Shown one piece after another: positions 13,701 through 38,910 of a DNA stretch of 64,000 nucleotides (its first letter is position 1; each line of letters opens with the position of its first letter). The notes under the pieces were generated by a model. The model saw only the letters and a program-made list of their open reading frames with translations, made no database searches and was not told the DNA's origin. The stretch comes from Crocinitomicaceae bacterium (GTDB lineage Bacteria > Bacteroidota > Bacteroidia > Flavobacteriales_D > Crocinitomicaceae). Made by a program: the position numbers and the translations under genes. Where the stretch lies: contig JAHEMR010000003.1 of the NCBI GenBank assembly GCA_024643545.1, positions 1 to 64,000 on the forward strand. The letters run 5' to 3'.

Positions 13701-16700
13701 AAATTGCTGGAGCCAGTACCTCATCCTATTTACCATCCGTTAGTGTTGTTGGAACAAGTTATTATTATTGCATTGTGACCCAATCCACTCCCAATTGCTC
13801 GAACGTTAGTAATAATGCAGCAATCCAAATTAATCAACCTCCAACGATAAGTGCGCAACCTATCCAAAGTCAAACAATCTGTGAAGGAGGTACACCTTCT
13901 CAATTACAAGTATCCTACATAAATGGTACAAATTCAGCAACTTATCAATGGTATGTTTCCAATACAAATTCCAACACCGGTGGTGCGCCAATTTTAAATG
14001 AAACCAATTCATTTTATACCCCACCAACGATTTTGATTGGTTCCAACTACTACTATTGTGTAATTACATTTCAATCTGGTGGATGTTCGACCTTGACATC
14101 GGCAACTGCACAAGTTTCAGTGGTCAACGACCCTGTAATAAACACTCAACCTTTAAATGCGCAGGCCATCTGTCAAGGAAACACAATTAACTCACCCTTG
14201 AATTTCACTTATAGTGGTGGAACGGGAAATTCAACTATTGCTTGGTACTTAAACACGACACCTCCAATATTGATCAATGGTGTAACAACCTCTTCTTTTT
14301 TACCTGTTCCATTTAACGTGGCCGACACCTTCTTCTATTATGCTACCCTAACTTTTGATGGCATTGGCTGCAATAGTGTAAGCACACAACAAGCAGAAAT
14401 TATCGTTCATCCAACTCCATTTGCTTTAAATTTGAATGACACCATTGTGGTTTGTAACCATGGAAATTTGGCTATTCCATTAACGGCATCTGTCACTTCA
14501 ACATTTGTATGGCATACCACAAATAATCCAGCAGTTACTGGAGAGAGCTTTTTAAATCAAACAAGTTACTCGATTGATGATTCATTAAGCAACAATTCAA
14601 CAAGTCCTCAGTTCTTAACGTATACGGTGACACCGACTTCCTTCCCATTTGGATGCGTTGGACCTGATTCAACGGTAACAGTTCAAGTTCAGCCGGATGT
14701 GATATTATCCATGAATCCAAGCATGGAAATTTGTAGTGATAGTCCAGTAAATGCGATTTTAACCTCAAACATTCCTTCTACATTTTCGTGGTTTGTATCT
14801 GTTAATAATCCTAACGTAACTGGTGAATCCATCCTGCCAAGTTCGAGTCCTTTGGTCAATGATGTTTTGGTTAATACCTCTTCGGTTAACCAGGTTGTAG
14901 TATATGCTGTGTTTCCGATTTCGATTCAAGGCCAATGTGCGGGAACTGCTCAACCGCTCCTAGTAACAGTTAAACCTCCGATTCAATTATTAAATCCAGA
15001 TACATTAACCATCTGTAGCGGACAAAATACAAACATAAACCTAGTAGCGAACACCAATGTTCAATTCAATTGGTATGCGTCCCCTTCTTTAAATGTAATC
15101 GGCGAAACAACCTCGGTAGTGAGTTCTGCGCTCATCAATGACGTGTTATTAAACCTTACAAATGCCGTTGAGACGGTTACGTACAATGTTATCGGGACTT
15201 CGTCTGCGAACGGTTGTTCAAGTCCGGTTCTTCCACTTTATGTCGTTGTGAATCCAATTCCGGAGGTCTTTGATGCGAATCCTATCACCATTTGTAATGG
15301 CGCCTATTTGTATCCAGTAAGTTTACAAACAACTGTCTCGGGAGGAACAACGAACTGGACTGTATTGAACAACAACATTGGAATTCCTTCCAACTTTGGA
15401 TCAAATACACTCCCTGGTTTTACGGCAATTAATAATTCCATCATTACTCAAACTGGCCAAATCTCTGTCACTCCAATTCATACAAATAATAGTGTGACAT
15501 GTATTGGAAATGACACGACTTTATTGATTCACGTTTTACCTACACCGACAGTCAACTCCATCCAAGATATCGTTGCCTGTAAGTTAGAGCAAGTACCTTT
15601 AACACCCCTCTCTGGACCTGTTCCAAATACCGTTTATCAATGGGTGAATGCGAATACAACTGTTGGATTAAACGTAAGTGGTATTGGTGATATCCCCTCT
15701 TTCGTTGGGCAAAATTCAGGACTTATTCCAATTTCGGGTACTGTCTCCGTGTCTCCAACATACAGTGAGAACAATGTGAGTTGTCAAGGTGCTCCAATCG
15801 ACTTTACGATTACCATTAATCCTAGTCCAACTTTATTAAACAATGACATCGAAATTTGCGACGGAACGAATACAAACATTCTATTGAATGCAAACATATC
15901 CAGCACATTCCTTTGGAACGCCACAATAAATCAAAATGTCTATAATGAAACGAGTACACCGATTCAAACAGGGGCGTTCATCAATGACTTGTTAGTATTA
16001 GCAGGCACAACGATTCAAACAGTTGAATACAACATCACCCCAATTTCAACGCCTTATGGTTGTTATGGAAATGAAACGACAATAAACGTTCTAATCAATC
16101 CGTTACCGATTGTTGACTTTTCCATCATAAATCCCATTCTTTGTAATCAATCAAGCATCAATTTCCAGAATAATTCTGTTGGACCTCTAGCCTATACGTG
16201 GGCGTTTGGTGATGGTGATTCATCTTTCCTTTTCAATCCAGTTCACGAATACATTAATTTCGGTTCTTATCTTGTTACTTTGGGTGGAATTGACCAAATA
16301 ACTGGTTGTGAGAACCAAGATAGTCAAACCCTTATCATTCACGAAACACCTGAACCCGATTTCATTCAATCTGACAGCATTGCCTGTGGAAGCTTAGAGG
16401 TTTTATTTACGGCGCTTGATTTGAATCCAACATGGCAATACCAGTGGGATTTCGGTGATGGTGCATCTTCCAATCAGTTTGGCCTTACAGGGCATCAATT
16501 CGTTACAAGCGGTTGTTTTGATGTTACGCTGGTCGTAACAACACCTGAAGGATGTACATCGGATTCCACACAACTTTCTGCCGTTTGTATTTATCCAGAA
16601 CCTGTTGCATCTTTCTCCATTGACGATGCCGTTCTCAGTTCATTAGCACCTGAAGTGACGTTCTTCAATACCTCCGTTCACGCTGATACGTATCTATGGG

Positions 16701-17173
16701 ATTTTGGAGACAATACGACGAGCATCACCCAAGATCCAACACATCTTTATCCTTCCGACCCTGCGACTTACGTAATTGTTTTAACCGCAAGTAATTTCAT
16801 CGGTTGTCAAGATACAGCAGCCTTAACCGTTACTGTATTCCAAGATTTGGCGATTTATGTACCGAACACCTTTACTCCAGATGGGGATGAATATAATCAA
16901 TCTTTCTTACCAATTCTAACAGAAGGATTCAAGAAAGAAACATACCACCTGACTATTTTTGATAGATGGGGAGCAGTCGTTTTTGAGTCCAAAGATTATC
17001 GATTCGGATGGGAAGGAACGTACAAATTCAGCGAACATGGTCCGGTTAAAAACGGATTATTTTTCAAGGACATTACCTGTCCAGATGGAACATACATTTG
17101 GAAAATCTCGATTGAAGTCCTTCAAACAGGAGAAGTAAAAGAGTTTTTAGGCCATGTGAATTTGTTGAGGTAG
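4796..17173 (+). CDS. Giant (4125 aa) secreted adhesin-like protein: Ig-like repeats, PKD domains, gliding-motility-associated C-terminal (CHU_C, type B T9SS sorting) domain
   Basis: Signal peptide STRFKIFVLLAFFVLANSYTNAQ; many repeats of TICVGG...YQWYSN...YYYC; PKD motifs YTWAFGDGD and YQWDFGDGA; C-term YVPNTFTPDGDEYNQSF...FDRWGAVVFES...W. TTG start. Confidence 0.92.
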   Translation: MNTLSTRFKIFVLLAFFVLANSYTNAQCVGSSVTLGADQYYCAGTPVTLTPTVSNAPTGTATYSWTFQSNPISPNPTGTTYTIPANQSGTYAVTITYGPNCVITDEVVIGFLPVPTIGSNQCISTGNAANLSVNFSPALPSGVNATYAWTGPNGFTSSSSNPSISSFNSLNSGSYNVTVSFNTSSSSTCTYNLTTNLYLTPSTPSFSIPSNGCPGTNYSPTGFTVQPNTSYSWSISQSSNSTGLNSSAPVFNFTNSGINSITVTATQNGCSSTSSSQGISILNLGLNDPDIAPTSSPNSYLASPVPFGGALTYKICGSNNVSSVQISNFPPSSNNSATQYSITWGNNPPINFANGSSTTQSILIGNNPFTISASYGGCTTSINYNIYVGSNPYVSVGVGNSTGLCPGQNVIANITPVGQLGQQNSPGTTYSLYFSNNPNTIVQTFTDLTSTTAAQPVVFNQSSCGNAPLNNCYPSQANVYYAYVVATNACDNSCANSPAITINDKPDANFTVSKSIVCPNSNITITNTGTNGNTISGSATSGYSCSINTKIKYVISPNSGFTVVSGDLGGNSGNFNNWTGTNTVVLNFTSPGTYTIKQYAQSNNCGSDSIIKTICVINPPISVISPYSTIQCSPATLSLSSNSILPTCGTTPIPVAYLWSVTNPTGCSSCSNTISSPTSANSNFSFTNNSNSIQTYTVNLSVTPLDPITNLPLSGPGCSNTSSIPIQVYPSVQITPITTCNGTLNWNLANQVNVPSTFTWQAADNAYVSGETTTSQSTSSITDVLVNNSTTAQTVTYTVNAVSVTGSCTATNTFTVNLVTPLSVQALTNQTICVGGGLSAPLVLNYSGGSGSATFSWSLNSSTSQIATTASYSPPSFNTVGSYLYTGTVFSGPSGCVQTVSQSATITVVADPTITTQPINASYCQNASPVTPLSVIATGGTGSFNYQWYSNLNNTNSGGQSISGANLSTFTPPNSSIGNYYYYCIITQTGLNCSVVSNVVQVVVNSPPTITSQPQNQTICVGGTLTTLNVGFSGGTANPTYQWYSNTTNANTGGTLLSGETNANLTLPATLNGTASNSYYYCVINFGSASGCSVITSNAATISVLADPTFSVQPIQSQTICQGGSLANPLTVVVIGGSGNSTYQWYTVNGTTYNSIANSNSANYNPSIYSTVGNFTYAVSVTQTVSGCASTYSTNAEVIVAADPTVSITSGANYCQNASTITPLTVSATNGNGSAFTYQWFSNSTNTNSGGIPQGNSNSASFSPPVNATGTLYYYCIVTNAPSSTGCSTTSNTAAITVNAGPSISTPPQSQAVCAGGTLSALNVAYTGGTGSVTYQWYSNATNTTSGGTPVGTSSSSYALPSTLNASVGTFYYYCELSFGGSGGCSQITSSVATINVVASPIVTAPNSQTICTGGNPLAMSVSASGGINSSYSYQWYNASGAISTANSVNYSPPSSAGTYYCVVSILPSTSGCSTNSANATVTIEPDPTISAPQSANYCQNAGTVAALSVTANGGISSAYVYQWYSNTNNNTSSGTAISAANGGTSASYTPPVNNTGTLYYFCVASINPSSTTGCSVTSDIATITVNAGPTITTPPQSQAVCVGGTLSALNVAYTGGTGSVTYQWYSNATNTTSGGTPVGTSSSSYALPSTLNASVGTFYYYCELSFGGSGGCSQITSSVATINVVASPIVTAPNSQTICTGGNPLAMSVSASGGINSSYSYQWYNASGAISTANSVNYSPPSSAGTYYCVVSILPSTSGCSTNSANATVTIEPDPTISAPQSANYCQNAGTVAALSVTANGGISSAYVYQWYSNTNNNTSSGTAISAANGGTSASYTPPVNNTGTLYYFCVASINPSSTTGCSVTSDVATITVNLSPSFATQPIANQTICLDGNFTPLNVVYQNGTGTPTYQWYSNTVNNTSNSTLIQNETNASYTPTSNVIGTTYYYCVATFASGGCSSIISTISTAIVVADPTISLQPSPAQTICVGGTLSNSLSATSVNGTGNISYQWSSSSGNIPGATSQTYLPPSFSTVGSYSYFVTITLSGSGCNAAISQNAVIDVIADPVVSVQPIDAAYCQNASPITPLSVSATGGLGTFSYQWYSNSSNTNNGGILIPGATLNSYTPSVSNTGVQYYYCLISQTGLNCSVSSATAAVTVNPAPTFSTQPIASQTICLNGTLNPLSVVYQNGTGVPTYQWFSNFVNSTSGGTAISGETTSTYSPPSNTVGTTYYYCVATFSSGGCTAITSTLGTVVILADPTISTQPIPSQSICVGGTIATALSASSTGGTGTISYQWSNSSGAITGATSQTFLPPSFSNTGQFNFTVTITLSGSGCDALTSNLALIDVVSDPTVSTQPVGTSYCQNGSPVSPLTVAATGGIGTFSYQWYSNSVNSNIGGTLIPLASSTSYTPPVSTVGTTYYYCVISQSGLNCGVTTNTAAIIVNPAPTFSTQPITSQTICLDGTFNALTVVYQNGTGVPTYQWFSNATSSTSNGTILPNETNATYTPPSSTVGTTYYYCVATFASGGCSAITSNLATATVVDDPSISIQPIPTQSICVGGTIANALTATYVNGTGTVTYQWSNSTGSISGATSQTYLPPAFSTVGAYTYFVTITLSGSGCNATISQNAVIDVVADPVVSVQPISASYCQNGTPVAPLTVGATGGIGNFSYQWYSSNSNSVNGGTIISGANSSTYTPSVTNIGTIYYYCVISQSGLNCSVTSNTAGIIVNQAPVFLTQPVSQTICTGGVFDMLSVSYQFGTGVPTYQWYSNTTNSYTGAVAIAGANSPTYQAPSSSTGSNFYFCDISFSFGGCSNISSSISNQVVVVDPTITTQPLPNQTICVGGTISSPLNVIVSGGTGITTYQWFQGTNQIINATQSTFLPVSFVNAGMYTYQVNINSTGVGCAALISQQVNVEVLDDPLVTSPTSAIYCQNSPVVAPLQVIVSGGAGTNNYQWYYSASNLNSGGLQIAGASTSSYLPSVSVVGTSYYYCIVTQSTPNCSNVSNNAAIQINQPPTISAQPIQSQTICEGGTPSQLQVSYINGTNSATYQWYVSNTNSNTGGAPILNETNSFYTPPTILIGSNYYYCVITFQSGGCSTLTSATAQVSVVNDPVINTQPLNAQAICQGNTINSPLNFTYSGGTGNSTIAWYLNTTPPILINGVTTSSFLPVPFNVADTFFYYATLTFDGIGCNSVSTQQAEIIVHPTPFALNLNDTIVVCNHGNLAIPLTASVTSTFVWHTTNNPAVTGESFLNQTSYSIDDSLSNNSTSPQFLTYTVTPTSFPFGCVGPDSTVTVQVQPDVILSMNPSMEICSDSPVNAILTSNIPSTFSWFVSVNNPNVTGESILPSSSPLVNDVLVNTSSVNQVVVYAVFPISIQGQCAGTAQPLLVTVKPPIQLLNPDTLTICSGQNTNINLVANTNVQFNWYASPSLNVIGETTSVVSSALINDVLLNLTNAVETVTYNVIGTSSANGCSSPVLPLYVVVNPIPEVFDANPITICNGAYLYPVSLQTTVSGGTTNWTVLNNNIGIPSNFGSNTLPGFTAINNSIITQTGQISVTPIHTNNSVTCIGNDTTLLIHVLPTPTVNSIQDIVACKLEQVPLTPLSGPVPNTVYQWVNANTTVGLNVSGIGDIPSFVGQNSGLIPISGTVSVSPTYSENNVSCQGAPIDFTITINPSPTLLNNDIEICDGTNTNILLNANISSTFLWNATINQNVYNETSTPIQTGAFINDLLVLAGTTIQTVEYNITPISTPYGCYGNETTINVLINPLPIVDFSIINPILCNQSSINFQNNSVGPLAYTWAFGDGDSSFLFNPVHEYINFGSYLVTLGGIDQITGCENQDSQTLIIHETPEPDFIQSDSIACGSLEVLFTALDLNPTWQYQWDFGDGASSNQFGLTGHQFVTSGCFDVTLVVTTPEGCTSDSTQLSAVCIYPEPVASFSIDDAVLSSLAPEVTFFNTSVHADTYLWDFGDNTTSITQDPTHLYPSDPATYVIVLTASNFIGCQDTAALTVTVFQDLAIYVPNTFTPDGDEYNQSFLPILTEGFKKETYHLTIFDRWGAVVFESKDYRFGWEGTYKFSEHGPVKNGLFFKDITCPDGTYIWKISIEVLQTGEVKEFLGHVNLLR
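8714..9535 (+). repeat. Intragenic duplication, copy 1 (822 bp)
   Basis: Near-identical to 9578-10399 at offset 864 bp; I see three differences, all near the 5' end. Confidence 0.95.
9578..10399 (+). repeat. Intragenic duplication, copy 2 (822 bp)
   Basis: Same as above; explains the identical 87-aa out-of-frame ORFs at 9063 and 9927 in the track. Confidence 0.95.
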
Positions 17174-24976: not shown

Positions 24977-25888
24977 TTAAAAATATCGTGGACTGACAAA
25001 TGCTGCTTGTTTAGATCGTAGATCGAATGCTACGTAAAGTTCGTGGCTCCCCCAATTGTTGAAGCGTAAATGATTGATTGGAAAATCATAGGCATAACCG
25101 AAAGTCCAAGAATCTGTTGGTGAATAAGAAAAATTCATTCCTAAAGATTCACGGTAACGGTACATGATTCCTGCCCAAAACTGCTTGTACATGTGTGCAG
25201 ATAAATTGAAATCGACTGTTACCGGTGCGTTTGCTGTGAATTTAATTAACATGGATGGCTTGATGTCCAATACCGAATTGTAATGGTGCACATATCCCGC
25301 CGCTAAAAAGTAATGCCTCTGTAAAGTTGAGTTGGATAACGTATCAAGCGAACGTCGCAGCAACCTAGGAATCGAAAATCCAATATAAGCATTCTTAGAG
25401 TACGCGTACATCCCTGTTCCGAAATTAGGCGCTTTTACCTGATTGGATGTCGTATAATTATAGTCTGTCGGATCAATCACAGTGAGACCATTAAAATCAT
25501 ACTGGCTCGACTGAATTCCTCCTGAAAGTCCCATGGACATTTTCCAATCCGTATGTTTAAATTGCAAATGATAAGCAACATTGGCCATCAGTGTAAAATT
25601 CGTTCGGACACCGACACGGTCAAAACTCAAGTTGCCCCCAACGCCTAAATGCTTTTTCATTATTGGCGCATGAATGGATAAAAACTGTGTGCGGGGTGCT
25701 CCTTCCCATCCAACCCACTGCGCACGATTAATGGCTGTGAAGTTCAAGGAACCTCTACTTCCTGCATACGCTGGATTGTAATTTAATGGATTGAAAAAAT
25801 ACAAGGAAGACTGCGCGTCCTGCTGTGCATTCACCCGTATTTGTCCAATACAAATGAACAATAGGGAATATATAATTAACTTTCTCAT
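24977..25888 (-). CDS. PorP/SprF family type IX secretion system membrane protein
   Basis: QQDAQSSLYFFNPLNYNPAYAGSRGSLNFTAINRAQWVGWEGAPRTQFLSIHAPI is the PorP/SprF signature. Confidence 0.93.
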   Translation of the reverse strand: MRKLIIYSLLFICIGQIRVNAQQDAQSSLYFFNPLNYNPAYAGSRGSLNFTAINRAQWVGWEGAPRTQFLSIHAPIMKKHLGVGGNLSFDRVGVRTNFTLMANVAYHLQFKHTDWKMSMGLSGGIQSSQYDFNGLTVIDPTDYNYTTSNQVKAPNFGTGMYAYSKNAYIGFSIPRLLRRSLDTLSNSTLQRHYFLAAGYVHHYNSVLDIKPSMLIKFTANAPVTVDFNLSAHMYKQFWAGIMYRYRESLGMNFSYSPTDSWTFGYAYDFPINHLRFNNWGSHELYVAFDLRSKQAAFVSPRYF

Positions 25889-28800
25889 GGTTGAATTTCT
25901 AAATATCCTTTAATTAAATCCTGTGATTTTTTCTTGGTGTCAATCACATAAAAATACGTCGCCGCTGGAAGTGGACCATCCACTTGTCTACCTTCCGTAT
26001 ACCAGCCGTTCCAATCATTTTGATAAACTTCGGATTGATATACAATGTTGCCCCATCGGTTATACACCCAAACTTGAATTTCTGGGTATTGTGATGTGTT
26101 ACCGAAAATCCACTGGTCGTTTTTACCATCACTATTCGGTGATAAGAACTGTGGAACTACAATAGGAATCAATGGCGTACAATCTACTGAGAAGGTGTCG
26201 ATAAGCTCACAATTGTTAGCGTCTGTAACCGTTAGGATGTAATTTCCTTTGTCGACAGCTAATAAGTCTTGGGTGTTTTGACCGTTACTCCAGCTGTATG
26301 AATAACTTCCTGTTCCTCCAGTAACCGAAAGATCAAGTTGTCCATTTGCTTCGCCACATTGAGAAATCAAAGAAGAAAGCAAATTAATTTCGATGGGTTG
26401 CGGTTCACTTATAACCAAGGTAGTATCTGCCGTACATTGATCATCATTTGTGATCAGAACGGAATAGGTTCCCGCGGATAAATTCGAAAGGACATTCGTT
26501 GCACCAACATTTGGTGTCCAAGCATAGGTCAATGGACCCTGCTGATTTGTCGTAAGGTTAATTCCTCCATCTGTGCCTCCAAAACAACGGACATTTGTCA
26601 GTACCACATCCGTTATATCAACGATGTTTGGTGCATCCATAATCACCGTGTCTAAGTTTACACATCCTGTAGTGGGATTGGTAACCGTTACAATGTAGGA
26701 ACCTGGTGCATTTACTGTAATCGTTGTCGTTTGTGCGCCAGAAACAATTCCGGGACCTACCCAAGAAACCGTACAATTGTTGGGTTGAATAACCCCGCTA
26801 ATTTGTGCCGTTGGTGATATACAACTTAATCCTCCAGCAGGATTTGTGGTAAATTGAAATCCTGGAGTTGGATTGATGCTTACCACAAAATCATCTTGAA
26901 CGCCCGTACATCCGTTTAACTGAGCCGTAGCAGTAATGGTACCACTGAGGGATGAACCTGTATTGTTTGCACCTGCAATCCAAGTAGGAATTTGTCCATT
27001 CCCAGAAGCCGCTAAGCCAATATTTACGTTGGAATTTGTCCATGATATCACTCCTCCCGCAGGACTCGTTACATAATCTGCAGGGTTGATGCTCGTTCCA
27101 GCACACACCGTAATATCTGACACTTGATTCATCGTGATTTGTGGTTGAACGGCAACCGATAAAAACATAGTATCCGACAAACATGAAATTCCTGTTGGAA
27201 CAAAATAATAAATGACTGTATCAATCGTATTTCCAGTATTCACAAGCACATCCGTTACTGTTCCATTATTTGCAGAACCATTGCTCGCACCTGTTATGGT
27301 AGAAGGGGAAACATGATTCCACACAACCGACATATTGGATAAATTACTTGAGTAGGAAACGTCAACAGTTTCACCGCTACAGATTAAGGTATCTTCCGTA
27401 GATAAATCGACTGTTCCAACTGGATTAATCGTTACCGTAAATTGATCTTGTACACTTGGACAAATTGAATTCAGTACCGCAGTCATGGTGATGGTTGCAC
27501 TGATATTCGTGGTACCGGTATTAGAACCCGCAGCAAACGTTGGAATTTGCCCAGATCCTGAAGTTGGAATTCCAATAGAACCATTGGTATTGGTCCATGT
27601 TAAGGTTGCCCCTACCGGACTCGTAATATAATCTGTTGGATTAATGATTGTTCCAGGACAAACGGTGTAATCTTGAACTGCGTTAATACCGAGATTTGGT
27701 TGAACGACAACTGGAACTACAATAGAGTCACCCGGACATTGAACTCCTCCAATAAAAATTGTATAGAACACAGTATCCAAAGTATTCCCACTATTTGAAA
27801 GCGTTTGACTGATTGTACTTCCCGAACCGTTCGATTCTCCCGTGATGGTTACTGGAGCCAGTGCCTGCCAAGTGAAGGTTGCGTTTTGTAAGTTACTTGA
27901 AAGTTGAATCGTAGCATTGTTTCCACTACACACATACGCTTGACTTGGATTCGCCTGAATATTTCCAACTGGATTCACGTTGATGGTTACCACTGTTGGA
28001 GCAGAGTTAGTACATCCAACCCCTGCAGATAAATGAACGACACCAACCGTGTTGGAAGAGTTATTCAGCATCATCGGAGTAACCGTTGTATTCGTGACAC
28101 CGCTTCCTGTCGCAACATTAAAACCTGTCACATTGGTTGAATCCTGTAAATTCCAAGTAACGGTGTATCCAGGAACTGTTGACGAGAAGACAATCGGATT
28201 GAAAAAGTCACCGGAACAAATGGTTTGAACCATTGGCGTTGCAAGTACTGTTCCCGTTGGATTAATAGTCACTATTTGCATGATGGAATCCATTCCACAC
28301 GTATTTCCAGTGTACATCCAAACATGATAAGTACCCGGAAAATTAAAATTAACGACTAAACTGTCCGTTCCATTTGTCCAAGTTGTGTAATCGTAATTAC
28401 CATTAATGTTTCCGTTGTTCGAACCAAGTGATCCATATGGAATGGTATACCCCGTTGTTTCTTGTATGGACCAATAATGTCCATAAGCATTTGAACATCC
28501 ATTATTACTCACAGACTCACCTGAAGAACTTGTGTTCGAAAAACTCACATCCTGATTCACACAAATAGGTGATGCCGGTGTATAGGTAAATTGCGCATCC
28601 GATCCTGTGGAAATGGTAATCGGACCTACCGTTGCAAAGGTTGTTCCACAAGCATTTTGAGCAACAATGGTCGAAGAGAATGCATTATTGATGGTTATTG
28701 GACCTACTGGATAAGACTGACCACACGAAGAGGTGTTAAAAATGTGTGCAATCGTTGTATCATTTATGGTAGAGAAAATACTAGAAGGAGTACCATCCGT

Positions 28801-29577
28801 AAAGGAAACTGTGTATTGTGTTCCCGGTATATTGTTTGAAAGAATGTCGATTTCGTAAGGAGAAGGCAAACAGGTTGTCTGACCAGAACCCGCCACATTG
28901 ATGATCGGTGCGTCACCATTAAAGATAAGGTATTGTCTTACTTTCTGACAGCCAGCTGCATTCGTTAACGTGTGTGTCAAGGTAAATGCACCGAGTCCAT
29001 ACGTATGGGAAATCTGACCTGCAACAATGTTTGCTTGTGTTCCATTAGGACTTGCATCCCCCCAATTGAAGGTCTGTGTTGTTCCTGGAATTGCGGCAAC
29101 ATTCCACAGAAAAGTAGTATTCGTAGTATTCTGACTAACGCAGCGTTTAAACAGGGTAATCCCATTCACAGTAGTCGTTCCAAAACTGATTCCAGTATTC
29201 GCCAGTACAAGGTTGGAAACAGGAGAAGCATTGACCACAATTGTGCGACTTGACGTGTTTGATTGCCCATTGGGATTTGTTACCGTTAATGAAACAGTCG
29301 TTGCTGGCGTTGCCACATTGTACTGAACCGTGTGCGGTCCAACTTGATTCGAAGAAACAGGTGTTGCCCCCGTTCCAAAGGTCCAACTATACGTTGCACC
29401 TGGCAACACATTTGCAGAAGAATTTGTAAAAGTGATGGATTGACCCTGACAAATCGTAATGACACCGGCATTTAAAGATGGATTCGATTGAAAGGAGGAA
29501 ATTGGTACCTGAGCCCGTATCATTTGTGCGGTTAAAGACACAAAAAAGAGGAGGAAATAGCTGAATCTGAAGTTCAT
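25885..29577 (-). CDS. 1230-aa secreted adhesin with PKD and SprB-like repeats and gliding-motility-associated C-terminal domain
   Basis: PKD TYSWTFGTG; SprB-like VRCFGGTDGGINLTT...LTYAWTPN...SNLSAGTYSVLITNDDQC; C-term IVVPQFLSPNSDGKNDQWIF...VYNRWGNIVYQS. ATGA overlap with the sprF-like gene. Confidence 0.9.
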   Translation of the reverse strand: MNFRFSYFLLFFVSLTAQMIRAQVPISSFQSNPSLNAGVITICQGQSITFTNSSANVLPGATYSWTFGTGATPVSSNQVGPHTVQYNVATPATTVSLTVTNPNGQSNTSSRTIVVNASPVSNLVLANTGISFGTTTVNGITLFKRCVSQNTTNTTFLWNVAAIPGTTQTFNWGDASPNGTQANIVAGQISHTYGLGAFTLTHTLTNAAGCQKVRQYLIFNGDAPIINVAGSGQTTCLPSPYEIDILSNNIPGTQYTVSFTDGTPSSIFSTINDTTIAHIFNTSSCGQSYPVGPITINNAFSSTIVAQNACGTTFATVGPITISTGSDAQFTYTPASPICVNQDVSFSNTSSSGESVSNNGCSNAYGHYWSIQETTGYTIPYGSLGSNNGNINGNYDYTTWTNGTDSLVVNFNFPGTYHVWMYTGNTCGMDSIMQIVTINPTGTVLATPMVQTICSGDFFNPIVFSSTVPGYTVTWNLQDSTNVTGFNVATGSGVTNTTVTPMMLNNSSNTVGVVHLSAGVGCTNSAPTVVTINVNPVGNIQANPSQAYVCSGNNATIQLSSNLQNATFTWQALAPVTITGESNGSGSTISQTLSNSGNTLDTVFYTIFIGGVQCPGDSIVVPVVVQPNLGINAVQDYTVCPGTIINPTDYITSPVGATLTWTNTNGSIGIPTSGSGQIPTFAAGSNTGTTNISATITMTAVLNSICPSVQDQFTVTINPVGTVDLSTEDTLICSGETVDVSYSSNLSNMSVVWNHVSPSTITGASNGSANNGTVTDVLVNTGNTIDTVIYYFVPTGISCLSDTMFLSVAVQPQITMNQVSDITVCAGTSINPADYVTSPAGGVISWTNSNVNIGLAASGNGQIPTWIAGANNTGSSLSGTITATAQLNGCTGVQDDFVVSINPTPGFQFTTNPAGGLSCISPTAQISGVIQPNNCTVSWVGPGIVSGAQTTTITVNAPGSYIVTVTNPTTGCVNLDTVIMDAPNIVDITDVVLTNVRCFGGTDGGINLTTNQQGPLTYAWTPNVGATNVLSNLSAGTYSVLITNDDQCTADTTLVISEPQPIEINLLSSLISQCGEANGQLDLSVTGGTGSYSYSWSNGQNTQDLLAVDKGNYILTVTDANNCELIDTFSVDCTPLIPIVVPQFLSPNSDGKNDQWIFGNTSQYPEIQVWVYNRWGNIVYQSEVYQNDWNGWYTEGRQVDGPLPAATYFYVIDTKKKSQDLIKGYLEIQP

Positions 29578-29688: not shown

Positions 29689-31038
29689 CTAGAAACAGTG
29701 TCCGATTTGAAAGAAAAACTGTTTGTCTTCCTTGGAAATGGCATAATCAAATCTTAAAATGGTATTGACATTCCATGCGATGCGTAAGCCTAGTCCACCA
29801 TTTGAACGGAGGTTTTTTACATTCTGATTCCACATAGATGCACCTGAATCCCAAACAGCTCCAAAATCGTAAAAAGGAACTGCGCTAAACGCTAAATGCT
29901 GTTTGAATGCATCAAGTTCACCAAAACGGTATCGAAATTCTATGTTATTAAAGAACATCACCCTTGATAAAAAACGGCTCTGTTTGAAACCACGAAGTGT
30001 TTGCCCGCCTCCTAATCCTTCGATGCTGCCCTCTGATGTCCATTGGTCTTGGTATTCGTAGAATGGAGCATCCATTGCCGTATAACCCAAGGAAAAACGG
30101 GCAGCGAAAATTAACTTTTTAAATGTATCTGGGAGCAAACGTTGGTAAAAATTAACATGCGCAAAAGTCTTATTGAAGTTAAATTGAGATCCCAGTGCTT
30201 TCAAGGAAAGTTCATTGGTTAATTCGGCAAAAATTCCACTGGACGGATCTCCCTCCAAATCACGCGTATCGTAAATAAAACCAGCCTGTACGAATGAAAC
30301 TAAATTTTGACCAACTCCACGTATCAATCCATGCTGAAAATCCGTTGTTAAAAGGGAATTCCCGGAAAATGCAGTTAAATTCAATTTTGCCAATTCATAT
30401 CCTGCCAAAAGTCGAATCCGTCCTTCATTAAAGGAACGTTCCATACTCAAATTTAATATGGCTTCTTTTTTTGTGTACTGATGAAAAAAGGCATTTTGTC
30501 CCGTCAAAGAAGCATCATAGTCGCTAAAAGAGGCATGATGAATTACGTTTTGTGTAGAATCACCATTCGGATAATAACTTAAGCCCGGATTCGTTTCGGC
30601 TTCATTGATTCCGAAATACAATAAATTCGGATTAATTTCATAAGCCAATTCACCGCGAAGCCTCCATTTTGTATTCAAAATATACGGAACATCAACTGTT
30701 ACCATGATTTCTTTTTGCTGTCTGGAGGTGAGAAACATGGTGACATCAATTTCAGCACGGTATGGAGTGTATTTAAAGAATGGATCGGATTTTTTTCCAT
30801 TGAAAAAAAAACTACCTTCAGCTCCGATTCCTAAACCATTAACGGGATCAGAACTGATATCTGGAACACCTGTCACATAAAACCCTTCGCGTTTTGCGGC
30901 CAGATCCTCCTCGGATAATTGCTTTTCCTTTGCGATGGCAAATGGGAGCTTGAGTGTATCCTCTTTCAAATTAGTTTGGGAACCTGCGAAAAACGAAAAA
31001 AAGCCAATATAAGTGAGTAAAATGGAGTTTTTTTTCAT
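29689..31038 (-). CDS. BamA/TamA (Omp85, surface antigen D15) family outer-membrane protein
   Basis: GFIYDTRDLEGDPSSGIFAELTNE; GGGQTLRGFKQSRFLSRVMFFNNIEFRYRFGE; FDFGAVWDSG-like and C-terminal F. Confidence 0.85.
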   Translation of the reverse strand: MKKNSILLTYIGFFSFFAGSQTNLKEDTLKLPFAIAKEKQLSEEDLAAKREGFYVTGVPDISSDPVNGLGIGAEGSFFFNGKKSDPFFKYTPYRAEIDVTMFLTSRQQKEIMVTVDVPYILNTKWRLRGELAYEINPNLLYFGINEAETNPGLSYYPNGDSTQNVIHHASFSDYDASLTGQNAFFHQYTKKEAILNLSMERSFNEGRIRLLAGYELAKLNLTAFSGNSLLTTDFQHGLIRGVGQNLVSFVQAGFIYDTRDLEGDPSSGIFAELTNELSLKALGSQFNFNKTFAHVNFYQRLLPDTFKKLIFAARFSLGYTAMDAPFYEYQDQWTSEGSIEGLGGGQTLRGFKQSRFLSRVMFFNNIEFRYRFGELDAFKQHLAFSAVPFYDFGAVWDSGASMWNQNVKNLRSNGGLGLRIAWNVNTILRFDYAISKEDKQFFFQIGHCF

Positions 31039-31218
31039 CGGGAGATCAAGTTTGTATTGAGTAACACAAGATTAATCAATTTTGATCAATAAAGAGATTT
31101 AATTGAAAAAATCAAGGTAATCCAACCTTGCAAATAGATGTTGCGTTTTACTTTTGTTCATCATAAATTCACATTTTTTTAAAATTTGTGTAATATTGAT
31201 ACCTTAATCTATTCCTCA

Positions 31219-32886
31219 ATGAAAAAAACTAAAACCCTCTTATTTTCTCTCCTCGTTTTTTCCTTTCATAGTTTCGCACAAAAGTGGGGGAATTATACGC
31301 TTTATAGTATTCAAAATTCAAGCACTACATACTTAATCGATACCAATAATGTAGTTTACCACACATGGACACATGCTACTTCCGATAAAACAGGATATTC
31401 AAGCTATTTAATGCCCGACAAAATACTTTGGAGAACCGTAAAAACCTCTACGTCATTAAATGGTGGAGGCATTACTGGTAAAGTGCAAAAAGTCGATTGG
31501 AATGGAACAGTTCTTTGGAATTTTACTTATTCGAGCTCTACATATTGCATGCATCACGATATTTGTCCACTTCCAAATGGAAATGTACTGTTGATTTCTT
31601 ATGATGTGCGAACCGCAGCTGAATCGTCTGCAGCCGGACGAACAGCCTCAGGATCTGTTTGGTCAGAAAAAATCATTGAAGTGAAGCCAACCGGTGCAAC
31701 CACTGGGGACATAGTTTGGGAATGGAAATTATGGGACCACCTGGTTCAGAATGTGGATCCTGCGAAAAGTAATTATCAAACATCTATTTCTGAACATCCT
31801 GAATTATTGAACATTAACTATAATTCCACCGCGCAAGATTGGGTTCATATGAATGGAATCGATTATAATCCGGTACTTGACCAAATTACTTTTAGTTCGC
31901 ACATGTTGAATCAGTGGTTTGTGATTGATCATAGCACTTCCATTGCCGAGGCAGCTTCCCATGCTGGTGGATTCGCAGGAAAAGGCGGAGATTTTCTATA
32001 CCGATATGGAAATCCAACATCTTACGGAATGACCGGCAGTACCGTGTTAAATGTGACACACGATGCTCACTGGATTCCGGAGGGCAGTCCAGATGCAGGA
32101 CGCTTAGTTGGGTTTAACAACGCGGGGATTTCGAATCAACAATCAGCCGTGGATCAAGTGAATGTTCCCTTGAATGGATACAATTATAATTTAACACCTG
32201 GTCAAGCTTTTGCACCATTGATTTACGACGAGCGTTTAGCATGCAACGGTTCGACATCTAACATGGGGAATTCACAACAACTTCCAAACGGAAACGCGCT
32301 TGTTTGCATGGCCATGCAAGGACTCATTTACGAAGTGAATCCAAACGGAACAACCATTTGGTCGAAATCGACAACCGGAACAGTACCTCAAGCTTTTAGA
32401 TACAGTGATTGTTATGTGAATGGAACAAATATTCCAATTCCAACCATCACGGAGGCGAATAACTTATTGACATCCACTACAGCAGATACGTATCAATGGT
32501 ATTTCAATGGTCAAGCCATTCCAGGCGCTACTAGTCAATCCTACACGCCAACAGCGAATGGAATTTACCTGGTAAAAACCATGGACAATACCGCCTGTTT
32601 CAAACAATACTCAACAAGTTATTCTTACGTAAACTCAGCTGACGTTACAGAAATAAATGGAACAAGTTTGAGTATTTATCCGAATCCTTCGATGAACGGA
32701 CACTTTGTAATCCAAAGTACGATGCTTGAGTCATATGATGTGGTTAACATGCTGGGACAATTCATGACACAAAGTACAAACTCATCCGAAATCGATTTGT
32801 CAAATCAATTAAACGGAATCTATTTGATTCATATTCATTTAACAAATGGACAGACATTGACTAAACGATTAATAGTTTCAAAATAA
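31219..32886 (+). CDS. Aryl-sulfate sulfotransferase-like protein with type A T9SS sorting domain
   Basis: VVYHTWTHAT, MHHDICPLPNGNVLLISYD, EVKPTGATTGDIVWEWKLWDHLVQ, DWVHMNGIDYNPVLDQITFSSHMLNQWFVIDHS; C-term LSIYPNPSMNGHFVIQS...GIYLIHI. Confidence 0.88.
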   Translation: MKKTKTLLFSLLVFSFHSFAQKWGNYTLYSIQNSSTTYLIDTNNVVYHTWTHATSDKTGYSSYLMPDKILWRTVKTSTSLNGGGITGKVQKVDWNGTVLWNFTYSSSTYCMHHDICPLPNGNVLLISYDVRTAAESSAAGRTASGSVWSEKIIEVKPTGATTGDIVWEWKLWDHLVQNVDPAKSNYQTSISEHPELLNINYNSTAQDWVHMNGIDYNPVLDQITFSSHMLNQWFVIDHSTSIAEAASHAGGFAGKGGDFLYRYGNPTSYGMTGSTVLNVTHDAHWIPEGSPDAGRLVGFNNAGISNQQSAVDQVNVPLNGYNYNLTPGQAFAPLIYDERLACNGSTSNMGNSQQLPNGNALVCMAMQGLIYEVNPNGTTIWSKSTTGTVPQAFRYSDCYVNGTNIPIPTITEANNLLTSTTADTYQWYFNGQAIPGATSQSYTPTANGIYLVKTMDNTACFKQYSTSYSYVNSADVTEINGTSLSIYPNPSMNGHFVIQSTMLESYDVVNMLGQFMTQSTNSSEIDLSNQLNGIYLIHIHLTNGQTLTKRLIVSK

Positions 32887-32892
32887 ACGACT

Positions 32893-33879
32893 ATGAAAAC
32901 ACTTTCTATTTTTATCCTTTTTATGGGGTTTACAAGTATTTCCTTTGCAAAAAAAGTGAAATTCGCAGTTGACATGTCACAGCAAATTGTGAATGTAACA
33001 GGTGTTCACATTGTTGGAGATTTTCAAACAATAGCTGGATTTCCTGGCGGTGATTGGGTTTCCAATTCAACTCCCATGACACAAGAGGGAACATCAAATA
33101 TTTACAGCATCGTAGTCGATATTCCAGCCTTTCAAAAATACGAATACAAGTTTGTCAATGGAATTCAGTTTTACGAAGCGGAATTTGTACCGTATGAATC
33201 AAGAGTTGGGTATGACTTTAACGACAACCGTTGGTTGTATGTAGACTCTTTATCGAATGATACAACATTTGTTGGAGCTATCCTTTTTGCAGACAACGCG
33301 CCTTTGGGTAAGCAATTGATTCGTTTCTACGCCAATATGTACCAAGAAACTGTATCCTCCAATGGTGTTCATGTCCTTACCAATACATCTAACTTTAATC
33401 CAACAGCCAACTGGATGTATACGTTCGGTTCTGACTTATATGAAATCATTCTGTACGCTGATTCTTCCAGTAATGTACAATACGCTTTTCTAAATGGCAA
33501 CTCACTTGTAGACATGGAGAATATTCCGTCCATGTGCAACGTGCAAGGATACCGATCTATTGATGCCACGATGGATACGTTACTGACCAAAGTTTGCTTT
33601 GCCAGTTGCGAATTTTGTTCAGGAGTTGGCATCAATGAATCAACGATGGAACAACTTCATCTTTCTCCAAATCCAGCGACAAATTCCTTTACTATTTCAT
33701 CCGATTCACCCCTGATGCACGTATCCATTAAAGATATCAATGGTCGAGAAATCACCATCCCAACCGAAGGGAAAAATGAGCTAATGATTACAAGTTCACA
33801 ATGGTCAAGCGGCATCTATTGGATTCACGCAACCATGGAAAATGGAAAATGGTTGAGCGAAAAAATCGTCATCCAATAA
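32893..33879 (+). CDS. Secreted beta-sandwich (CBM48/E-set-like) protein with type A T9SS sorting domain
   Basis: VHIVGDFQ...FPGGDWVSNSTPM...YEYKFVNG; C-term LHLSPNPATNSFTISS...GIYWIHA. Confidence 0.65.
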   Translation: MKTLSIFILFMGFTSISFAKKVKFAVDMSQQIVNVTGVHIVGDFQTIAGFPGGDWVSNSTPMTQEGTSNIYSIVVDIPAFQKYEYKFVNGIQFYEAEFVPYESRVGYDFNDNRWLYVDSLSNDTTFVGAILFADNAPLGKQLIRFYANMYQETVSSNGVHVLTNTSNFNPTANWMYTFGSDLYEIILYADSSSNVQYAFLNGNSLVDMENIPSMCNVQGYRSIDATMDTLLTKVCFASCEFCSGVGINESTMEQLHLSPNPATNSFTISSDSPLMHVSIKDINGREITIPTEGKNELMITSSQWSSGIYWIHATMENGKWLSEKIVIQ

Positions 33880-33888
33880 GAAAAACCA

Positions 33889-36153
33889 ATGAAAATATTT
33901 AGCTCCCTCTTATTGCTTTTTATCGGCGTGTCACATGCTCAATCACAAAGTGATTTTTACGATAATAGTCAAATTCAAGAAATCCGTATTTATTTCAGTC
34001 AAACAAATTGGGATTATCAGATGGATACCGCGAAAGCTGGTACTGAATCCTTTATTATTGCGGATTCCGTAGTGATTAATGGCGTTAAATTTCTTTCTGT
34101 TGGAGTAAAATACAAAGGAAATAGTTCATATAATGCTGGTGAAGTTAAAAATCCGTTACACATCAGTCTGAATGAAACATTTTCGCAAAATTATCAAGGA
34201 TACCAAGATGTGAAATTGAGTAATGCTTATGGAGATCCCTCTGTCATCCGCGAAGTGTTGGCTTACGATATATTGAAGGATTACATGGTTTGTCCCAAAG
34301 CTAATTTCGCCAATGTATTCATCAACGACGTTCTCATGGGCTTATACACGAATGTTGAAAGCATTTCAAAAGCTTTTGTTCAAGAACACTTTTATTCGAA
34401 CAACCAGTCTTTCTTCAAATGTAATCCTGTAGGTACGGTAAGCCCGACGACGAAAAGTAACTTGCGTTATATTTCTGCGGACAGTACACAGTACTTTAAT
34501 TATTATCAACTTTTGTCCAATAACGGCTGGAGTGATTTAATTGCCTTATGTAATGCCGCAACAAACAACTTGGCAGCATTAGAAAATTTAATTGATGTGG
34601 ATCGCTCCTTATGGATGTTAGCCTTTAACAATGTGTTTATCAATCTAGATAGTTATTCCGGTGTGTTTGCCCAAAACTACTATTTATACCAAGATAACAA
34701 CGGCTATTTCAATCCGATTATGTGGGACCTCAACATGAGTTTTGGCTCCTTTCCTTTTCTTGGAAGTGGGAACACAAGTATGGGAAGTTTAACGAATTTA
34801 AACATGGAACAATTACCTGTTTCCATGCATAGTACAGATTCCTATTGGCCGTTGATTAAGTCTTTGAATGCCAATCCACTTTTTAAGAAAATGTATTTTG
34901 GACACATCAAAACGTTGATGGATGAAAAGTTAAGTAGTGGAACCTACCTTCAGCGTGCTCAATTTTTCCAAAACTTAATTCAGGCATCTGTAATTGCGGA
35001 TACGAATGACCATTTTACGGATGCACAGTTCTCGTCTTCCTTGACCACTGCCATTCCATTTAGTTCTTACACAGTTCCAGGAATCCAAAATTTAATGTCC
35101 AACCGGTTAGCATATTTATCTGGTACGAGCGAAATCAACCAAACTCAAGCACAAATATCCGCGATTAATGCGAGTCCAACGAGTCCAACTATTGGTCAAA
35201 CGGTGACTATTTCTGCACATGTCAGCAATGCTACTACTGTTTACTTCGGTTATCGCGCCAGTGTATTTGATCATTTTACACGAGTAGAGATGTTAGATGA
35301 CGGTCAACACAACGACGGTGCAGCTGGTGATCAAGTGTATGGATATCAATACGCTATGGATCATATCTTGACACAATATTACATTTATGCAGAAAATGCA
35401 TTAATAGGAAAATTCTCCCCAGAAAGAGCTGAATACGAATATTATACACTCTATGCAAATATGAGTTCACCTCAAGGAAATGAGCTTGTTTTAAATGAAA
35501 TATTAGCGAACAACTTTAGCGGGGTCATTAACGAATATGGATTCCGAAAAGATTGGCTGGAATTGTATAACAACAGTTCATCTACAAAAAATCTACTCGG
35601 GCTTTTCTTAAGTGACGACAAGGACAAATTGAATAAATATGCTTTCCCAATCAATGGAACTATCAACAGCAACAGTACCAATGTGGTTTGGATGGACAAC
35701 ACCTTAAATTCTTCGAACTATATGCATGCCAATTTCAGTCTTTCGAATGGGGGCGAAACGGTATACTTAACTAATTCTCAAGGGCTTATTTTAGATAGTG
35801 TTTCATATCCGTTACTCATCGAAGATGTTTCTTTTGGAAGATGTCCGGACGGAACTGGAACGTGGGGCTTAATGAATAACCCAAGTTTTAATGCCCAAAA
35901 TTGCATCGTAGGACTGACAGAAATTGCAATTGAACTGTACAATATTTCACCAAATCCATTTGAAAACAGTTTATGTATTACGAGTTCAGAAAACATGTTT
36001 GGTGAAATTCAATTATTAAACCTAAATGGACAGACCGTACAACGAATAAATTGCGCATCCAAGAAAATAGAAATTCCCACAGACTATTTAAAACAAGGGG
36101 TTTATTTACTTCAATTCAACGGACAAAACATTGGAAAAGTAGTAAAATTTTAA
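33889..36153 (+). CDS. CotH kinase family protein with lamin-tail-like domain and T9SS sorting domain
   Basis: VGVKYKGNSSY...KNPLHISLNETF, QDVKLSNAYGDPSVIREVLAYDIL, ANFANVFINDVLMGLYTNVESI, PIMWDLNMSFG; lamin-tail LVLNEILANN...WLELYNNSS; C-term YNISPNPFENSL. Confidence 0.9.
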   Translation: MKIFSSLLLLFIGVSHAQSQSDFYDNSQIQEIRIYFSQTNWDYQMDTAKAGTESFIIADSVVINGVKFLSVGVKYKGNSSYNAGEVKNPLHISLNETFSQNYQGYQDVKLSNAYGDPSVIREVLAYDILKDYMVCPKANFANVFINDVLMGLYTNVESISKAFVQEHFYSNNQSFFKCNPVGTVSPTTKSNLRYISADSTQYFNYYQLLSNNGWSDLIALCNAATNNLAALENLIDVDRSLWMLAFNNVFINLDSYSGVFAQNYYLYQDNNGYFNPIMWDLNMSFGSFPFLGSGNTSMGSLTNLNMEQLPVSMHSTDSYWPLIKSLNANPLFKKMYFGHIKTLMDEKLSSGTYLQRAQFFQNLIQASVIADTNDHFTDAQFSSSLTTAIPFSSYTVPGIQNLMSNRLAYLSGTSEINQTQAQISAINASPTSPTIGQTVTISAHVSNATTVYFGYRASVFDHFTRVEMLDDGQHNDGAAGDQVYGYQYAMDHILTQYYIYAENALIGKFSPERAEYEYYTLYANMSSPQGNELVLNEILANNFSGVINEYGFRKDWLELYNNSSSTKNLLGLFLSDDKDKLNKYAFPINGTINSNSTNVVWMDNTLNSSNYMHANFSLSNGGETVYLTNSQGLILDSVSYPLLIEDVSFGRCPDGTGTWGLMNNPSFNAQNCIVGLTEIAIELYNISPNPFENSLCITSSENMFGEIQLLNLNGQTVQRINCASKKIEIPTDYLKQGVYLLQFNGQNIGKVVKF

Positions 36154-36264
36154 TGCTATCCCAACCATTATTTGCTTTTCCCGTTTTAGTTTCGTGATGC
36201 CATTTGGATAAACTTTTAAAATATAACTCCAAACAAAGTAAACTAGATCTCCAAACATAAAACC

Positions 36265-38910
36265 ATGAAAAAAACCCTTTACTCCGCACTTCTGTTTTTT
36301 AGTGCTTGCCTATTATTTCAAAACAATTTGAATGCCCAAATACTACATACAGAAAGTTTTGATGCAACTCAATTTTTACCCACTGGTTGGGCTACTGTAG
36401 GTACGGCGCCAGATTGGGCACGTTCAACCACTTTTACGGCTCCACTTGTTGGTACTCCTCACTCAGGTGCTGGAATGGCGCGTATGAGAAATCCTTCAAC
36501 TTCCGCGGCGGCCCTTACGGAGGCAATCTCTACACCTGTTTTCGACTTAACAGGACGCGGAACAAACATCGTTCCTGTAAGTTTCTGGATTTACCGAGAC
36601 TCATTGGTTCCTGCTAACATCGATAGCTTAGGAGTTTTCGTGAATACGACAGCAACACTTACAGGCGCTACAAAAATTGGAACGGTTGCGAGAAATCGAA
36701 ATGTCAACGTTCCTGATACAAAAGCATCGAATGGCTGGTATCAATACACCTTTAATATTCCTTCTGCATTTGCAGGGGCTTCGAATTATGTGATTTTCCA
36801 AGGAACCGTTTATGGTCCAACGGCAACAGCAAGAAGAATTTACCTAGACGATGTCGCTTGGTCAGAATTCCCACCCGTTTGTGCTGGAACACCAACAGGT
36901 GGAACAATTTCATCTTCTTCCACTTTAATTTGCGGAGGCAGTGGATCGGCAACATTAACTTTAAATGGTGCAAGTAGCGGTACCGGAATCAGTTACCAAT
37001 GGTATACATCTTCTACACCGAATGGTCCATACGCGTTAATTGGATCTAACTCAACGACTGCATTGACAGGTAATCTGAATGCCAATCAGTACTATTACAA
37101 TATGGTTACGTGTGCTGGTTCAGGACAAAGTTCTTCCAGTGATACCCTGATGATTACCGTGAATCAAAATCCTGCTCCAGTTGTGTCCATCTCCATGGCA
37201 AACGATACGATTTGTCGTTTCGACACCTTGAATTTAACGGCATCTGGTGCAAGTTCTTACCAATGGAGTACAAACGCAAATCCAAATTTAAGTTCTTTAG
37301 CAACCGCAACGGATGTTCCTTTAAATACAACAACGTATACTGTAATTGGTACTGACGCATTGGGTTGTCCATCACAACCCACAACGCAAACAATTGTTGT
37401 TGGACGTCGTCCAAACATCAATGCATTCAACAACTCAAATGTAACCGTATGCGTTGGAGGTTCCTCGATTTTAACTGTCAACGCGACAAGTGGAGTCGGC
37501 GGCGGTGGTGGAGGTGTCACGCTAGCTTACCAATGGAATCCAAATGTTGGCACAACCAATTCGGTGACTGTATCACCAACAGTAACAACGCTTTATACGG
37601 TAACAGTGGTTGGACAATATGGATGCACATCGACGGATACTACAACAGTGAATGTCAATCCAAATGCAATTAGTCCAATCATTTCTGTCACTCCTGATTC
37701 TGTTAGCTTCTGTCAAGGAACAACAGGAAACACCGTAGATTTAACAGCAACATCCAATGTTTCTGGCGCGACTTATGCATGGTCTGCTAGTGCTGGACCT
37801 CCAATTACAGCAACAACAGGTACATTGACGGCTAATGTTGGAAATAATACGGTTACCTATACTGTTACAGGTACTGACCCAGCGAATGGATGTTATTCCT
37901 CCGCTAGTGCAACCATTTATGTGCGACCAGTTCCAAATGTGAACCTTGTTTCTCAAAATACAACTGTTTGTTTGAACGGAAGTGCGGTACTCTTAACCCA
38001 AGTAACGAATACACAAGGTACACCTGTAAATACTTATACATTTGACTGGAATCCAGCAGCAACAAACACCCAAATGATTACCTATGCACCAAGTGCAACG
38101 GGTTATGTATACGTGACGGTAACGAGTCCTTACGGTTGTACAAACAATGACTCACTATTAGTGACCATAGATAATACTTTAACAAGTCCAAGTTTAACAC
38201 TTGCGGCATCAGTAAATTTAATGTGCAGTGATAATATGAGTCCAGTTTTATTAACGGCTACGACAGATGCAGTTGGTGCTTCATACGCCTGGACACCAAA
38301 CTTTATCAATCAAAACATCGATACGATTACGGTTAATCCACAAAACTCAACAAACTACAGCGTTTCAGTAACGGATCAAAACGGATGTACAACGGCTGCA
38401 TCAACTTCTGTAATTATTAGTCCGGCGCCAGTTGCTGGATTTACGTCGGCAAATCTTCCAACGTTGGAGGTAGGCTTTACGAACACTTCAACGAATGCAA
38501 CGACGTACGCTTGGGACTTTGGAGATGGATTCACGAGTAACCTAGCCAATCCAACACATGGATACTTCACAAGCGGTTCCTTCACAGTGACCTTGATCGC
38601 TACGAATGCAGATGGTTGTGATGACACAACGAGTACAACCATTCAAGCGCAAACAACTGGTTTAGAGGAAATCGTTGGTGCTTTTGTACTTTATCCGAAT
38701 CCAACAAATGGAATGTTAACAGTTCAAAACATCAATCACTCCAACGGTACCATGATCATCTACTCAACAACAGGAACGATCGTGTTGCGTTCAGAACTTT
38801 CAAATTCAGATGCCCAACTTGATTTAAGTCAGTTAAATAGAGGTGTCTACTTCATTCAAATTACAAATAACCTCGGTCAATCATCTACGCACCGTGTAGT
38901 AAAACAATAA
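36265..38910 (+). CDS. Secreted choice-of-anchor J / Ig-like / PKD protein with type A T9SS sorting domain
   Basis: ILHTESFDATQFLPTGWATVG...PDWARST; PKD TYAWDFGDGF; C-term FVLYPNPTNGMLTVQN...GVYFIQI. Confidence 0.87.
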   Translation: MKKTLYSALLFFSACLLFQNNLNAQILHTESFDATQFLPTGWATVGTAPDWARSTTFTAPLVGTPHSGAGMARMRNPSTSAAALTEAISTPVFDLTGRGTNIVPVSFWIYRDSLVPANIDSLGVFVNTTATLTGATKIGTVARNRNVNVPDTKASNGWYQYTFNIPSAFAGASNYVIFQGTVYGPTATARRIYLDDVAWSEFPPVCAGTPTGGTISSSSTLICGGSGSATLTLNGASSGTGISYQWYTSSTPNGPYALIGSNSTTALTGNLNANQYYYNMVTCAGSGQSSSSDTLMITVNQNPAPVVSISMANDTICRFDTLNLTASGASSYQWSTNANPNLSSLATATDVPLNTTTYTVIGTDALGCPSQPTTQTIVVGRRPNINAFNNSNVTVCVGGSSILTVNATSGVGGGGGGVTLAYQWNPNVGTTNSVTVSPTVTTLYTVTVVGQYGCTSTDTTTVNVNPNAISPIISVTPDSVSFCQGTTGNTVDLTATSNVSGATYAWSASAGPPITATTGTLTANVGNNTVTYTVTGTDPANGCYSSASATIYVRPVPNVNLVSQNTTVCLNGSAVLLTQVTNTQGTPVNTYTFDWNPAATNTQMITYAPSATGYVYVTVTSPYGCTNNDSLLVTIDNTLTSPSLTLAASVNLMCSDNMSPVLLTATTDAVGASYAWTPNFINQNIDTITVNPQNSTNYSVSVTDQNGCTTAASTSVIISPAPVAGFTSANLPTLEVGFTNTSTNATTYAWDFGDGFTSNLANPTHGYFTSGSFTVTLIATNADGCDDTTSTTIQAQTTGLEEIVGAFVLYPNPTNGMLTVQNINHSNGTMIIYSTTGTIVLRSELSNSDAQLDLSQLNRGVYFIQITNNLGQSSTHRVVKQ

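Follow-up and report, generated by a model that had tools for sequence, protein, structure and literature searches.

The spore coat protein CotH of Bacillus has been shown experimentally to be a Ser/Thr protein kinase of surface proteins, with CotB and CotG as substrates, and it is inactivated by the substitutions D228Q and D251A (PMC7821199). Its distant relatives include the Fam20 secretory-pathway kinases (PMC7821199), one of which, Fam20B, phosphorylates a glycan, xylose (PMC7948968). The Fam20 kinases are eukaryotic, and they serve here as a parallel only. In Gram-positive bacteria, a trio of genes encoding CotH, a polyphosphate polymerase, and a DUF4956 protein adjoins Pel polysaccharide operons (PMC7112168). 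In Streptococcus intermedius, mutations in the CotH gene or in a gene for a four-TM membrane protein alter the level of Pel and aggregation, and the authors of that study did not find the CotH/polyphosphate polymerase/DUF4956 synteny outside Pel loci (PMC12345266). Judging from the description of the same cluster in PMC7112168, the membrane gene is presumably the DUF4956 gene. A second family of relevance is that of the PAPS-independent arylsulfotransferases (ASST), in which the AssT of Escherichia coli has His436 as the sulfurylated nucleophile, with His252, His356, Asn358, Arg374, and Thr501 around it (PMC13426309).

We analysed a window of 64,000 nucleotides (contig JAHEMR010000003.1) from a Crocinitomicaceae bacterium, in which three consecutive genes bring an ASST-like protein together with a CotH kinase. 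A search of the open-access literature (subscription papers and preprints were outside its scope) returned no paper joining CotH with an arylsulfotransferase or aryl-sulfate sulfotransferase, and nothing related on CotH with type IX secretion (T9SS) was found in the open-access literature. The cassette is real and conserved, and apparently undescribed as a cassette; the families of its components are already known.

Three genes for predicted type IX-secreted proteins

The first gene matches the Pfam family Arylsulfotrans at 1.2e-19 (71 bits against a curated cut-off of 24.2) and PF14269 at 4.2e-13. The ORF lister opens it at a TTG (position 31186); we used the ATG instead (Table 1). Its product consists of a propeller, an Ig-like stretch, and a T9SS type A tail (42.8 bits for TIGR04183). 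The third gene combines a CotH domain (5.8e-41, 141.5 bits against a curated cut-off of 23.8) with a lamin-tail domain (LTD, 8.8e-14). The product of the middle gene, g2, has matches to CBM_48, X25, and CBM_20 that are all sub-threshold in the window copy, and X25 and CBM_48 exceed the cut-off in its relatives. The best of five models of g2 (pLDDT 84, against about 70 in the other four) matches the folds of CBM26 and CBM20 domains and of the RemA-CTD, and its tail resembles the RemA sorting domain. Por_Secre_tail (PF18962 and TIGR04183) is above cut-off on all three proteins, which identifies type A T9SS tails, and the N-termini look like signal peptides when judged by eye. The genes are separated by 6 bp (first gene to g2) and 9 bp (g2 to CotH). 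The first-pass annotation had named the sulfotransferase-like, CotH, and lamin-tail domains, had placed a type A tail on each protein, and had described the spacing as operon-like, all of which the Pfam matches, tail profiles, and gaps bear out.

Elsewhere in the window, a PorP/SprF-family gene, the one gene of the T9SS machinery seen, stands beside a gene whose 1230-aa product has SprB repeats and a type B (CHU_C) sorting domain. This pair adjoins a pseudouridine synthase gene in the sister genomes G015, G068, and G057. A 4125-aa ORF, rich in PKD/Ig domains and with a CHU_C sorting domain, encodes a giant surface protein.

Table 1. Coordinates of the features discussed in the text. Positions are those of the window unless a locus (L) is given; G000 is the genome of the window.
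Feature	Position	Strand	Basis or remark
Gene 1, ASST-like propeller, 555 aa from ATG	31219-32886	+	PF05935, PF14269, TIGR04183
Gene 2 (g2), two tandem E-set/CBM20/26/48-like beta-sandwiches, 328 aa	32893-33879	+	weak CBM matches
Gene 3, CotH kinase domain and LTD, 754 aa	33889-36153	+	PF08757, PF00932
Left junction of the block, divergent Omp85 gene to ASST-like gene	31039-31218		sister-genome neighbours, flank alignment
Right junction of the block, CotH to the 881-aa gene	36154-36264		flank alignment
Omp85 gene	29689-31038		divergent from the triplet
881-aa T9SS gene	36265-38910		111 bp after CotH
PorP/SprF-family gene and 1230-aa protein gene	24977-29577	-	
4125-aa ORF	4796-17173		
Separate VTC and DUF4956 pair, genome of the window	L137:9056-10475		G000 contig C33, about 114-115.5 kb; no CotH beside
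Two further CotH genes, genome of the window	L054:6042-9671; L057:7116-11420		G000
ASST-g2 fusion ORFs	L139 6600-9524; L140 6144-9368; L142 6555-9506	-	single ORFs, propeller and tandem g2 domains
Calcineurin-like phosphoesterase with T9SS tail	L081:11169-12299		

The triplet is gained or lost as a block

The genes that flank the triplet, one for an Omp85 protein and one for an 881-aa Ig protein, are direct divergent neighbours in two sister genomes from which the triplet is absent (G061 and G517). Both flanks in the window align to this empty junction above random stretches, and the empty sites match the final ~30 bp upstream of the start codon (ATG) of the 881-aa gene. Because the flanking genes adjoin directly in these two genomes, the triplet has come or gone as a block. 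Among other close genomes, G002 has the same triplet in the same place, the contig of G067 ends within the ASST gene beside Omp85, and G012, from another species of the genus, carries a cassette of the type ASST-CotH-propeller-VTC-DUF4956 in another gene context. The comparison of these five genomes indicates that the cassette is accessory and that it is gained or lost as a unit. We considered the 881-aa T9SS gene as a further member of the unit and rejected it, since it adjoins Omp85 in the sisters without the triplet.

Recurrence of the ASST and CotH genes across Bacteroidota

The genome of the window has one ASST gene and six CotH genes, so that their adjacency in a single genome proves little; it is recurrence across genomes that does. 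We scanned GTDB genomes with four CotH-linked ASSTs as seeds, which gave 488 relatives, and read the best 76 loci, of which one near-identical locus was dropped to leave 75. A same-strand CotH gene lies near the ASST in 55 of these 75 best loci, which come from several families of Bacteroidota. Two or more genes follow downstream in 65 of the loci, and in 53 of these CotH is at most four genes away from the ASST, where about 1% would be expected by chance (about six CotH genes among ~2400 in the genome of the window, the gene number being an estimate). The grouping that the first-pass annotation had reported for one genome is hence conserved across the phylum.

Since the scan was seeded with CotH-linked copies, we also surveyed an evenly drawn set of 396 Bacteroidota genomes, which yielded 58 ASST matches in 47 genomes. 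CotH is close by in nine of the ten matches above 440 bits (that of the window included), and the tenth begins 0.9 kb from a contig end. The corresponding figure for the weaker matches is 2 of 48 (Fisher p = 5e-8, a value that is indicative only because the matches are phylogenetically non-independent and the 440-bit cut was picked after seeing the data). This split reveals a CotH-linked ASST subfamily next to a larger group of solo ASSTs, and the linked sequences form a clade in a small tree. The notion that all T9SS-type ASSTs are linked to CotH was rejected, given the large solo group without CotH. Tandem ASST-like genes with no CotH near by were seen at three loci (L051, L052, L119). The gene trees of ASST and CotH are correlated over 58 linked pairs (r = 0.42), a value reached by none of 2000 permutations, the largest of which gave 0.19; shared species history alone could explain part of this correlation.

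Besides ASST-g2-CotH, we encountered the orders ASST-CotH-propeller and ASST-propeller-CotH as well as a few permutations; the median gap between cassette genes is 7 bp. Of the 55 linked loci, 17 have g2 as the third partner, 34 have a Reg_prop propeller with a T9SS tail, 4 have neither, and none has both. The conservation of the triplet is thus partial: the grouping of ASST with CotH recurs, but the third gene is replaceable. In three genomes, ASST and g2 are fused into one polypeptide of 974-1074 aa, in which other, Ig-like-looking sequence links the two parts, and CotH is the next gene. The idea that the adjacency is due to chance or to an annotation artefact draws on the abundance of CotH genes in such genomes. 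It is almost certainly wrong: the pair recurs in several families at a spacing of a few bp, ASST is fused to g2, and the block is present or absent as a whole. Recurrence across genomes has already refuted it.

Some loci include further genes. A calcineurin-like phosphoesterase with a T9SS tail lies inside at least one cassette, between propeller and CotH, possibly as a phosphatase beside the kinase, and loci L100 and L086 have ORFs that resemble it in size and place. A pair of LytTR-type histidine kinase and response regulator, possibly a regulator of the cassette, stands directly upstream of the ASST in loci L064, L067, L070, L076, L079, L099, and L123.

Active sites of the two predicted enzymes

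The CotH protein of the window matches the structure of spore coat protein H (5jd9) at 1e-8 by sequence and 2e-11 by profile. Asp251 aligns directly with D280, which is invariant in 55 of 55 linked copies. Both the pairwise and the profile alignments set Asp228 opposite S257, beside a gap, at a position that varies in relatives. Three residues before it, the loop has an acidic residue, D254, that never varies (55/55), and this motif makes it probably the equivalent of Asp228. Of the two catalytic residues of the kinase, on which the first-pass reading depended, Asp251 is kept and Asp228 probably so. The cassette resembles the CotB/CotG/CotH module of Bacillus (PMC7821199) in its CotH-fold kinase with catalytic Asp residues (Asp228 probably among them), and the CotH module there acts on a surface layer. 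It differs in having an LTD and a T9SS tail on the kinase, an ASST-like partner, and no Ser/Lys-rich substrate gene.

As a single sequence, the ASST-like protein matched none of the solved structures, and matches to Streptomyces Cpz4 (9kf4) and E. coli AssT (3elq) were obtained with profiles. Its AlphaFold model (pLDDT 91) finds Cpz4 (9kf4) first among PDB folds and AssT entries next; here and for g2 we used the identity of the matches and not their geometry, because full-length Foldseek TM-scores are poor for such multi-domain models (about 0.38-0.46 for the ASST-like protein). Profile alignments with 3elq and 9kf4 place His356 at H210, Asn358 at N212, and Arg374 at H228. The nucleophile His436 corresponds to H281 in the alignment with 9kf4, the weak alignment with 3elq being one residue off there, and His252 was assigned to H112/H113 by the HHD motif (112-114), not by alignment. 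Residues H112, H113, H210, N212, and H281 are invariant in 101 of 101 ASST sequences. Position 228, that of Arg374, is His in 57 of them, the window included, Arg in 35, and another residue in 9. In solo ASSTs, the active-site histidines and the Asn are likewise retained, and the Arg374 position varies. The model has no counterpart of the N-terminal beta-sandwich domain of AssT, its propeller strands starting right after an N-terminal helix. Relative to AssT and Cpz4, the window protein thus shares the propeller fold and the equivalents of His252, His356, Asn358, and His436, and it differs in these two features, in its Ig-like stretch and T9SS tail, and in its link to CotH. The catalytic site expected of a sulfotransferase is preserved at these four positions but not at Arg374, which is why we call the protein ASST-like and not a proven AssT.

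The substitution of Arg374 by His and the missing sandwich may mean that sulfotransferase activity is lost or altered. The protein could then be a propeller for binding or scaffolding, or have some other activity, which would leave CotH as the sole enzyme of the cassette. Propellers often serve as scaffolds, and the protein that can take the place of g2 is likewise a propeller. We consider this unlikely, if well short of negligible: none of the 101 sequences departs from the other four active-site residues, the nucleophilic His among them, a constancy that a mere scaffold would not require, and the closest solved fold is that of a sulfotransferase, Cpz4.

Polyphosphate polymerase genes and the Pel parallel

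In 18 of the 55 linked loci, the gene run of the cassette includes a VTC polyphosphate polymerase and/or a DUF4956 gene, and the run usually also holds a small lipoprotein, a repeat protein, and a DUF2490 protein. The synteny of CotH, VTC, and DUF4956 hence occurs in Bacteroidota, together with ASST. The likeness to the accessory genes of Gram-positive Pel operons lies in this combination within one run and in the surface-matrix context. The differences are the Bacteroidota host, the T9SS, the ASST-like protein with g2 or Reg_prop, and the arrangement in the genome of the window, where VTC-DUF4956 is ~78 kb from the cassette on the same contig and not linked to CotH. No Pel genes were noticed when the loci were read. 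Beside two other CotH genes of this genome lie genes for a DUF2490-like protein and a small lipoprotein, accessory kinds found after the cassette in relatives. We also checked a link of CotH to sulfated exopolymers in Pontiella and rejected it; the sulfotransferases there are of another type (PF13469).

Substrate and proposed function

With about even confidence, we propose that the cassette sends three proteins through the T9SS to the cell surface, one of them a binding protein and the other two predicted group-transfer enzymes that would act on a common class of substrate, likely a glycan or matrix. CotH would phosphorylate an extracellular substrate, and the ASST-like propeller would sulfurylate the same substrate class via a transiently modified His281. 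This substrate would most likely be a surface glycan or matrix polymer bound by g2. The phosphate could be provided by the VTC polyphosphate polymerase with DUF4956, which lies in the same gene run in many relatives; we know of no extracellular ATP or sulfate donor here. The mechanism is plausible and unproven. Counting against it are the His at the Arg374 position, the inconstant third partner, the distance to VTC-DUF4956 in this genome, and the need for donors outside the cell.

The first-pass annotation had suggested the Ser/Thr-rich adhesins near by as targets. In such a scheme, CotH would phosphorylate Ser/Thr-rich T9SS adhesins and the ASST would sulfate their side chains, much as CotH of Bacillus acts on CotB and CotG (PMC7821199); T9SS adhesins are indeed abundant in the window. 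The comparative data did not bring out this link. The adhesin neighbours lie outside the conserved unit and are not conserved with it, and the 881-aa gene next to the cassette also occurs in its absence. No gene for a Ser-rich substrate turns up repeatedly; what does recur beside the enzymes is either a CBM-like protein or a propeller. The partners that recur (CBM-like g2, VTC, DUF4956) suggest glycan or phosphate chemistry instead. Modification of proteins is therefore improbable in our judgement, though it retains some weight. Three points lead us to favour a glycan over an adhesin: g2 resembles CBM proteins, the Gram-positive module works together with an exopolysaccharide, and a recurring Ser-rich protein is lacking. 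Among the loci examined, the cassette has no consistently linked glycosyltransferase, so the case for a glycan is built on the fold of g2 and on the Gram-positive parallel.

The glycans might also be foreign, the cassette acting on environmental polymers for feeding or attachment and not on the cell's own surface. Many T9SS-exported enzymes act on external polymers, and the CBM-like folds of g2 would fit such a role. Adding phosphate or sulfate does not degrade a polymer, however, and no glycoside hydrolase recurs in the cassette loci when these are inspected by eye, which makes this very unlikely. The wider version of the own-surface reading would have a T9SS-exported CotH and a PAPS-independent sulfotransferase work together on one surface polymer throughout the phylum Bacteroidota, with exported polyphosphate, the product of VTC-DUF4956, as the phosphate donor. 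This is a speculation that we regard as distinctly doubtful.

Implications

CotH kinases and ASST-like proteins are frequent annotations in Bacteroidota, where to our knowledge they have no known roles. Their union in one cassette, which is conserved, co-inherited, and in part fused, makes their role testable. Its recurrence as a unit suggests a shared, undescribed way to chemically decorate the cell exterior. It would connect two extracellular modifications in bacteria, phosphorylation and sulfation, and it would extend the module of CotH, polyphosphate polymerase, and DUF4956 beyond Gram-positive Pel loci. It would also raise the question of how a kinase obtains its donor outside the cell; polyphosphate, if it is indeed the donor, would let the kinase work there.
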